8,948 nt of DNA from a bacterium (lineage in GTDB: Bacteria; CSSED10-310; JAJRTK01): the NCBI GenBank assembly GCA_024278345.1, contig JAJRTK010000547.1:1-8948 (forward strand). The letters are read 5' to 3'. The position numbers and the translations under genes were made by a program. This document shows, one piece after another, positions 3,232 to 7,980 of this stretch (the first letter of the stretch is position 1; each line of letters begins with the position of its first letter). A model generated the notes under the pieces. The model saw only the letters and a program-made list of their open reading frames with translations. It was not told the DNA's origin and searched no databases.

Positions 3232-3260
3232 ATTCATCAACTTTGCTTACCGGAGCTGTC

Positions 3261-3269
3261 GGAAGGGAG
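3261..3269 (+). promoter_or_regulatory. Ribosome binding site that decides the start of the zinc-ribbon gene
   Basis: GGAAGGGAG lies 6 bases before the GTG at 3276. The in-frame ATG at 3228, which overlaps the upstream stop as ATGA, has no such site. This favours GTG 3276, which also places the zinc ribbon at the N-terminus. Confidence 0.7.
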
Positions 3270-3275
3270 TTTTTT

Positions 3276-3734
3276 GTGCGGACCATTCGTTTGTCGTGCA
3301 GTCACTGTGGCGCACAGTTGAACTTTGTGTCCGCGGTGCAGGTCCTTTGCGAATACTGCAATGGTGTCAACTACCTGAACTACGATGAAGAGAGGGATGC
3401 TCTGGGTCTTGTTCGTCATCGCCTCGAAACCGAAACACTCCGGGAGGGATTGGGAACACGGATCGAGGTGCTGCTTTCCAACCTTGATGCCATCGATCCC
3501 GCTCAGCGTTGGCCACCGGATGGGATATCTTTTCCCGGTCGGTCTCTTTTCATGGGCTTCGGGGGAATGGTCTGCGGGGCGTTTTTCATATCCATTGGGT
3601 CAGGTGGATTTGGATTGATGGGGATCTTGACGTTCCTTGGCGGAGCGGGCTGGATCGTTCGGAAATTCAATGGCGGGGACTTTGCTGGTGGTTCATCGCC
3701 TTGGCCGCTGCCGTTCACCGGACGGAGGTACTGA
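3276..3734 (+). CDS. Small zinc-ribbon membrane protein
   Basis: From GTG 3276 this is 152 residues. The N-terminus has two metal-ligand knuckles, CSHC (8-11) and CEYC (25-28), spaced CX2C-X13-CX2C as in a zinc ribbon. A charged, probably helical segment (37-70) follows, then two glycine-rich hydrophobic helices (about 91-107 and 110-128) and a short polar tail. The likely topology is a cytoplasmic zinc ribbon tethered to the inner membrane. I do not recognise the family. The gene begins just after the large surface-protein gene; an alternative ATG at 3228 would overlap that gene's stop and add 16 residues. A second, unrelated zinc-ribbon membrane protein lies near the end of the cluster, so this pairing may be part of the system's design. 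Confidence 0.75.
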   Translation: MRTIRLSCSHCGAQLNFVSAVQVLCEYCNGVNYLNYDEERDALGLVRHRLETETLREGLGTRIEVLLSNLDAIDPAQRWPPDGISFPGRSLFMGFGGMVCGAFFISIGSGGFGLMGILTFLGGAGWIVRKFNGGDFAGGSSPWPLPFTGRRY

Positions 3735-6182: not shown

Positions 6183-7133
6183 GGGCTTAGGAGTGGCGGG
6201 AGCGGGTGTTCCTTTCAGAAGTTGGCCAGAAGGCTTCTTCTGTTGGGATGTCTTCCCTTGCTGATCCTGGGCGCGTTGACCGTGGAGGCCAAGGGGCTTC
6301 CGGGAGGTGTGGAAGAGTTGCTTTCCGGGCTGCTCAAGACCAAGGGAACGGTTTCCTTCGATTCGAGGAAAATCAAGGGAGATCTTAGACGCTCAGGTCG
6401 CCGCTGGTGGACCTTCGCCAGGCTTCGCGAGGACGGCAGCCTCTTGTCGGTGGCGATCATGACTCGGCCTGGATCATCCTCCACGAACCGCGCTTTGACG
6501 GACGGGTGCCTGGTCAGGGCGGTCCACGTGGGGCTGGCGAGCTTGCTGGCGACTCGGGATCTGGGTTTGGACGGCGCTTCTGACGCGGAGCGTAGGGAGT
6601 TTTCGAACTTCCTTGTGCAGGACGCATTGGAGGCGACGGTTTCAGGGCTGTTGTTTCAGCGGCGGGTGTTCGACGCCAATGGTGCGGCGGCGTTGGTGGC
6701 TTTTCGTGCGGATGCCGTGAGTTGGGAGCGGGGATCGCTCCTTACCGCCGAGCGTAAAGCTCGATTCTGGGACTATTTGCTTGTTCGAGCCCGAAGCGAG
6801 GTCAGGGCAAAGAATTATCGCGGGGCCTTGGGCTTGTACCGGGGATTGAGCAGTTTTACGCTCACGCGGGAGAGGTTCGAGCTCTGGGGAGAAGTGGCCT
6901 GGGTGAGCGCCCTGGCAGGCGACCGCGAACATAGCCGCGCCATCCTGGAGCGTCTGGCTCCCCGCGGAACAGTGCCCGTCGAGGAAATCCTCTACCGGGC
7001 GCAGGCCTCGTTGCTCATCGGGCAGGAGAACCGCGCCTACCGTTGGCTGGAACTCGGATTGGAGAGGCACCCCGAGAACCATGAAATACTCGAGCTGTAC
7101 AGCAATTTGCCGTGGGAGCGAATCGGCGAATAG
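6156..7133 (+). CDS. Secreted or membrane-anchored TPR-like protein
   Basis: The ATG at 6156 follows AGGGGG (6141-6146), giving 325 residues. A basic n-region of 26 residues leads into a hydrophobic stretch (RLLLLGCLPLLILGALTVEA, 26-45), a signal peptide or anchor. The n-region is unusually long and its first residues lie in the duplicated junction repeat. Residues about 46-195 form an alpha/beta domain in which RAVHVGLASLLATRDL, DALEATVSGLLFQRRVF and AAALVAFR recall the helix-strand order of LPP20/CsgG-neighbour domains; this is a weak resemblance. Residues about 200-320 are helical hairpins in TPR style: FWDYLLVRARSEVRAKNYRGA, WGEVAWVSALAGD and ILYRAQASLLIGQENRAYRWL. A periplasmic scaffold for the neighbouring CsgG-like complex is my inference. 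No specific family recognised. Confidence 0.72.
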   Translation: MTTSRFPSKGLRSGGSGCSFQKLARRLLLLGCLPLLILGALTVEAKGLPGGVEELLSGLLKTKGTVSFDSRKIKGDLRRSGRRWWTFARLREDGSLLSVAIMTRPGSSSTNRALTDGCLVRAVHVGLASLLATRDLGLDGASDAERREFSNFLVQDALEATVSGLLFQRRVFDANGAAALVAFRADAVSWERGSLLTAERKARFWDYLLVRARSEVRAKNYRGALGLYRGLSSFTLTRERFELWGEVAWVSALAGDREHSRAILERLAPRGTVPVEEILYRAQASLLIGQENRAYRWLELGLERHPENHEILELYSNLPWERIGE

Positions 7134-7156
7134 CAGAGCGACGAGGCAATCAGCAC

Positions 7157-7163
7157 AAAGGAG
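7157..7163 (+). promoter_or_regulatory. Strong ribosome binding site serving an out-of-frame start
   Basis: AAAGGAG lies 5 bases before the ATG at 7169, the best initiation signal in the neighbourhood. In the present sequence that ATG opens only a 32-residue peptide ending at the TGA at 7265. Removing one copy of the adjacent 23-bp repeat would join it to the 7980-ending frame. It is therefore the likely original start of the zinc-ribbon/HEAT gene. Confidence 0.8.
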
Positions 7164-7177
7164 TCAACATGTCCATT

Positions 7178-7223
7178 CAATGTCCATGGTGTGGAGCAAG
7201 CAATGTCCATGGTGTGGAGCAAG
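7178..7223 (+). repeat. Exact 23-bp tandem duplication causing a frameshift
   Basis: Two identical 23-bp units, 7178-7200 and 7201-7223, sit directly next to each other; both start CAATGTCCATGG. Twenty-three is not a multiple of three, so the downstream frame is shifted. Both units encode QCPWCGAS: the first in the frame of ATG 7169, the second in the frame that runs to 7980. This is direct evidence that a single-copy form was one continuous gene. Confidence 0.95.
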
Positions 7224-7980
7224 CCACGATGACGTCACCTTGGAGTGTGCCTGCGGCGCAGACTTGAGAAAAGTTGTGCCCGGTTTGCACCGGGCCGAGA
7301 CAAAGAAAACCGGGACTTCGAGGATCGGCTTTTCCATTCTTGTCATCTCCTTGTTGATGCCCTGGATCTATGTCGATTGCGACTTTAGGTCAAGAACTGC
7401 GTTTGGCTACGACATCGCCAAGATGAATGTACTCGTCATGATCGCCTTTGGCTTTTCAATTGTCGGTCTCATGGCGTCTTGGAACGCTTTTTCGAAACAC
7501 TCTAGCAAGATAAAGAAAATCTCCGCAGTCCTAGCACCGAGTTTTTTGGTGGCAGGCATCGGGGCAATCATTGTCCATCTTGAATCAGCACCATTTTTCA
7601 GAAGTTATGATCATGTGGTTAGAGTGTTATTCTCATGGATCAAAAAGCAACCACTGAACTCTGTTGGATTATATTCTTTTGCTACTGGATCCGTGATGGT
7701 TATTGTTGATAGTTTTACATCGGTATCCGGAATGGATGATGAGACCTTACGGGAAAAGCTGGAGATAGCTAAGCGGGAGCGAATCGTCAGCTTGCTCCGA
7801 AAGCTTCGCGAGCCACACCGAAGCAAGCGCTTGACGGCGGCCCGGGAGCTGGGCGCCATGGGAAGGGCCGCGGCGGTTGCGCTTCCCAGGCTGGAGGAAC
7901 TTGCGGTGAATGATGGCGACGATTTGGTGCAGGAAGCGGCAAGGAAGTCCGTGGAACAGATCAAGGGAAGCGCCGGGTAA
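7180..7980 (+). CDS. Zinc-ribbon, four-helix membrane protein with C-terminal HEAT repeat; start disrupted by duplication
   Basis: The original start is probably ATG 7169 (262 residues with one repeat copy). In this sequence the long frame can start at ATG 7180 (266 residues, with its ribosome site 16 bases away), at ATG 7186, or far upstream at 7081 inside the previous gene. Numbered from 7180, CPWC (9-12) and CAC (23-25) form a short zinc ribbon (CX2C-X10-CXC). Hydrophobic helices lie at about 49-65, 82-101, 114-134 and 160-177. Residues about 208-262 (AARELGAMGRAAAVALPRLEEL, then DDLVQEAARKSVEQI) match a HEAT-like repeat, a protein-binding unit. The membrane part is AT-rich and the HEAT part GC-rich. 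Either the gene is frameshifted in this genome or it initiates weakly. The family was not recognised. Confidence 0.72.
   Translation: MSMVWSKQCPWCGASHDDVTLECACGADLRKVVPGLHRAETKKTGTSRIGFSILVISLLMPWIYVDCDFRSRTAFGYDIAKMNVLVMIAFGFSIVGLMASWNAFSKHSSKIKKISAVLAPSFLVAGIGAIIVHLESAPFFRSYDHVVRVLFSWIKKQPLNSVGLYSFATGSVMVIVDSFTSVSGMDDETLREKLEIAKRERIVSLLRKLREPHRSKRLTAARELGAMGRAAAVALPRLEELAVNDGDDLVQEAARKSVEQIKGSAG

Follow-up and report, generated by a model that had tools for sequence, protein, structure and literature searches.

An exact tandem duplication of 23 bp lies just inside the start of a putative membrane-protein gene in the window, by which we mean the whole 8,948-nucleotide stretch analysed, corresponding to contig C495 of the draft genome of an environmental bacterium (6.06 Mb in 550 contigs, 87.9% complete). 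The second copy separates the ATG at position 7169, which looks like the natural start of the gene, from the reading frame that runs on to position 7980. We interpret this arrangement, with a probability of roughly 0.55, as an ordinary and potentially revertible tandem-duplication mutation that lowers or abolishes expression of a 262-residue protein, and not as a proven switch.

The tandem repeat and the reading frames across it

The 23-bp unit, CAATGTCCATGGTGTGGAGCAAG, is present in two identical head-to-tail copies at 7178–7200 and 7201–7223, beginning three codons past ATG 7169. Including one extra matching base that brings its end to 7224, the array is 47 bp long with a period of 23 and a match of 100%. 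The longest short-offset self-match in the window was 24 bases at an offset of 23; ten first-order Markov randomisations reached 8–12 bases, and the repeat is therefore not a product of chance. The exact duplication described in the initial annotation was therefore confirmed. The unit did not occur again in the 6.06-Mb draft genome when up to 3 mismatches were allowed, and the array is situated 1.7 kb away from the contig end. The features of the region are as follows.

7157–7163, + strand: Shine-Dalgarno (SD) site AAAGGAG, 5 bases before ATG 7169 (anti-SD duplex −8.2 kcal/mol; spacing within the 4–10 bases preferred in the genome)
7169–7267, + strand: open reading frame beginning at the SD-supported ATG, with 32 codons and a TGA stop at 7265–7267; its first codons are probably those with which the gene originally began (translation)
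7178–7200, + strand: first copy of the 23-bp unit (repeat search and genome-wide unit search)
7180–7980, + strand: open gene frame with a zinc-ribbon-like start (CPWC...CAC), a HEAT-like C-terminus and, between them, about three hydrophobic segments; ATG 7180 and ATG 7186 are possible weak starts (translation, profile search and coding score)
7201–7223, + strand: second, identical copy of the unit, with the array going on for one base (7224)
7203–7232, + strand: nine-codon open reading frame in the third frame, stop TGA at 7230–7232; its ATG has GGAG (7193–7196) 6 bases upstream
7264–7267, + strand: TTGA, an in-frame TTG overlapping the stop of the 32-codon frame (weak SD, −1.7 kcal/mol)

As 23 bp do not make up a whole number of codons, the second unit shifts ATG 7169 out of the frame of the downstream gene. 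Translation from this ATG yielded only 32 amino acids (MSIQCPWCGASNVHGVEQATMTSPWSVPAAQT) before the TGA at 7265–7267, and reading the same frame through a single unit yielded 262 amino acids, both as previously claimed. Apart from poorer starts, the frame open to 7980 can be entered only within the first unit, at ATG 7180 (266 amino acids) or ATG 7186 (264 amino acids), both of which read QCPWCGASHDDVTLECACGADL.... As in a pseudogene, the locus has its apparent natural start in one frame and its coding sequence in another. The initial annotation had described the gene as knocked out of frame; the frame break is supported, but to call the gene knocked out is too strong, as ATG 7180 and ATG 7186, though poor sites, keep both cysteine pairs and all of the downstream sequence.

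The duplication also places the GGAG of the first unit 6 bases before the out-of-frame ATG 7203, and this ATG with its good ribosome site should act as a new decoy that is of no help to the gene. The TTG at 7264 is a possible weak site of reinitiation, from which the product would be the protein without its zinc ribbon.

Start-site preference and coding signal

The strong ribosome site reported before ATG 7169 was recovered at 7157–7163 with a spacing of 5 bases. Across the same genome, an SD core located 4–10 bases upstream was found for 34.0% of 429 first ATGs of long open reading frames and for 8.1% of internal ATGs, whereas sites at 14–18 bases only were found for 6.1% and 5.8%, respectively, and hence showed no excess. 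ATG 7180 has an SD spacing of 16, and ATG 7186 has no SD. Given this preference, ATG 7169 looks like the natural start of the gene and the other two are poorly placed. Weak use of ATG 7180 or ATG 7186 as starts is nonetheless possible and, since either would still give an intact protein, reduced expression fits the sequence as well as abolished expression.

Coding potential was scored from codon usage trained on long open reading frames of the same genome (training mean +0.114, 10th percentile +0.039 nats/codon). The gene frame over 7225–7977, comprising 251 codons without a stop, scored +0.071 nats/codon, and the neighbouring TPR and CsgG genes scored +0.121 and +0.169. The two other forward frames over the same interval scored −0.15 and −0.02, with 11 and 12 stops, and the 32-codon frame, which is a short stretch, scored −0.190 nats/codon. 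The downstream frame to 7980 therefore scores as coding, and the 32-codon frame lacks such support. We also considered a longer N-terminus beginning at ATG 7081, which is unlikely given that the gene frame over 7081–7179 scored −0.315 nats/codon. In the middle of the affected gene, positions 7402–7761 have a G+C content of 43%, compared with 54–61% in the neighbouring genes and 58% in the genome sample, and lack a third-position G+C bias. This low mid-gene G+C suggests that the gene may be foreign or fast-evolving.

The encoded protein and other tandem repeats in the genome

The protein encoded by the gene frame contains the cysteine pairs CPWC and CAC, hydrophobic segments at about residues 47–69, 79–104 and 113–140, and a HEAT-like end. 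Both domain labels of the initial annotation could be retained only in part. For the zinc ribbon, the CPWC...CAC motif is present and is the only basis of the label, with no significant HMM match in profile searches; for the HEAT region, the Pfam match to PF13646 (E = 1.8e-4, 22.1 bits) is sub-threshold, falling below the cut-off of 27.7. A single-sequence fold model, for which no alignment was used, had a mean pLDDT of 51 and is unreliable. No whole-protein homologue was found in 60 genomes (own, same phylum and same domain), in 7 other genomes of the phylum, in GTDB contigs searched by protein and by DNA pattern, or in viral contigs; all of these searches returned only weak HEAT or zinc-ribbon fragments. 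Partial matches at two loci (L004 and L012) were read individually and rejected as orthologues, as neither contained a recognisable one. The affected gene would be an orphan membrane-protein gene with a zinc-ribbon-like start. At 3246–3731 the same window encodes another small protein that begins like a zinc ribbon (CSHCG...CEYC) and has hydrophobic segments; it is flanked on one side by a VWA/subtilase-like protein and on the other by one whose PorV-like match is very weak.

We then surveyed how common such tandems are. In 1.02 Mb sampled from the same genome, 14 exact two-copy tandems were identified (about 14 per Mb), with periods of 12–149, and 6 of the 14 had periods that were not multiples of three. 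In two genomes of the same phylum, 0.27 Mb and 0.30 Mb contained 4 and 1, respectively. Such tandems, with their diverse periods, thus belong to the background of this genome. Of the six in the 1.02-Mb sample that were not multiples of three, the tandem in the window is the sole one next to a frame that is clearly coding. A 44-bp duplication bridging two open frames (L035) was rejected as a second frame-breaker, since neither frame scored as coding, and duplications at four further loci (L069, L073, L097 and L112) were likewise set aside, having open frames without a clear coding signal on both sides.

Two other repeats were observed during this survey. An exact 27-bp duplication (L051:2959–3012) lies across the end of an open frame of 411 codons, the C-terminus of which resembles FtsW/RodA; the stop codon is kept in the first unit, leaving the protein end unchanged. 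A dispersed family of 23-bp tandem repeats, with the unit GGGTCACGTTTGCGTGACTCGAA and an internal inverted repeat TCACG..CGTGA, is present on many contigs (e.g. L061:1–83, L068:16225–16324 and L072:1–95). A 31-base probe gave 117 matches to this family in the genome, compared with 0 for the reversed control. As these repeats are often located at contig ends, the family probably breaks the assembly. It was discarded as a source of the unit in the window, the two sequences being unrelated.

Competing explanations and known systems

The main rival to a duplication mutation is an assembly or sequencing artefact, in which the cells have a single unit and the draft gained its second copy through, for example, an unmerged 23-base contig overlap. 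The draft state of the genome, with its 550 contigs and 87.9% completeness, is compatible with such an error, as are the identity of the copies and the otherwise intact state of the disrupted frame, and false pseudogenes are documented to arise from assembly errors (PMC11017572). However, the periods of the genome's other two-copy tandems are varied (12–72) and show no single k-mer-like length, which argues against one systematic assembly error, and the array is distant from the contig end (1.7 kb). A 47-bp array is also short enough to be spanned by one ordinary short read. We therefore regard an artefact as possible, though less probable than a mutation. A more doubtful alternative is that the two-unit form is functional and stable, with translation starting at ATG 7180 or ATG 7186 to give 264–266 residues with a slightly altered N-terminus. 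Both codons are in frame and retain both cysteine pairs together with the rest of the protein, and the downstream frame is stop-free and scores as coding; but the spacing of 16 for ATG 7180 and the lack of an SD for ATG 7186, in a genome with no SD excess at 14–18 bases, count against efficient initiation, and competition would be expected from the better-placed ATG 7169 and from the out-of-frame ATG 7203 with its SD at 6 bases.

As in a contingency locus, the reading frame here depends on the number of exact tandem units, and we weighed a selected, reversible on/off switch operating through gain or loss of one unit. The position of the units right at the gene start and their length, which is not a multiple of three, agree with this idea, and pneumococcal capsule genes are reported to undergo phase variation through spontaneous internal duplications (Waite et al. 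2001, 2003, in the passages of PMC4022640 citing them). Yet there are only two units at one locus, and the genome has no further copy of the unit (up to 3 mismatches) and no related repeat at another gene. The locus showed no sign of variation, and the contig searches returned no other copy of it; in Xenorhabdus lrp, where some mutations are similar duplications, genetic reversion was not seen in the isolates tested (PMC6786866). A selected switch is thus possible in principle but unsupported by specific evidence, and we consider it improbable. The locus cannot be filed as phase-variable, because the defining feature of that class is the presence of both states in one population, and here there is one assembly. 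A more elaborate version, in which two-unit slippage switches an orphan zinc-ribbon/HEAT membrane protein and the decoy GGAG before ATG 7203 deepens the off state, is slightly less probable again.

Under the favoured explanation of an ordinary duplication mutation, the 23 bp just past the start codon were probably copied by replication slippage or by end-joining with one base of microhomology. Ribosomes loading at the strong site of ATG 7169 would then stop after 32 codons, and in this lineage little or none of the 262-residue protein would be produced. Collapse of the exact tandem to one copy would make the change reversible in principle, like any such duplication. The analysis shows the repeat and its uniqueness, the shift of frame, the coding signal downstream and the SD statistics; from these we infer an ancestral form with one unit, a duplication that is real in the cells and a lowered expression. 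As a one-unit relative was not found in the genomes searched, the ancestral state is deduced from a small number of codons together with the SD site and the coding frame. Counter to the mutation reading, ATG 7180 and ATG 7186 still give access to the intact frame, and expression may have been lowered and not lost. A real duplication would be one more short exact repeat that disables a gene revertibly, here in a bacterial lineage that is poorly known; an artefact would illustrate how draft assembly can give an intact gene the look of a broken one.

Among known systems, simple-sequence-repeat contingency loci resemble the window in that a change in copy number near the gene start shifts the frame. 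Such loci consist of many copies of very short units, often at several loci per genome, whereas the window has two 23-bp units at one locus. By analogy, the mechanism at the DNA level would work like the duplications described in Xenorhabdus lrp and in pneumococcal capsule genes. In the former, spontaneous tandem duplications of 26–116 bp inactivate the gene (PMC6786866), the likeness being a short spontaneous duplication that inactivates a gene; unlike the window, that case was shown experimentally, genetic reversion was unseen in the isolates tested, and lrp encodes a regulator. In the latter (the type 3 capsule locus, and cap8E and tts; Waite et al. 2001, 2003, as cited in PMC4022640), the resemblance lies in a frame-breaking short duplication that could be lost again, and phase variation was, according to those passages, observed in culture, whereas the window is known from one assembly alone.
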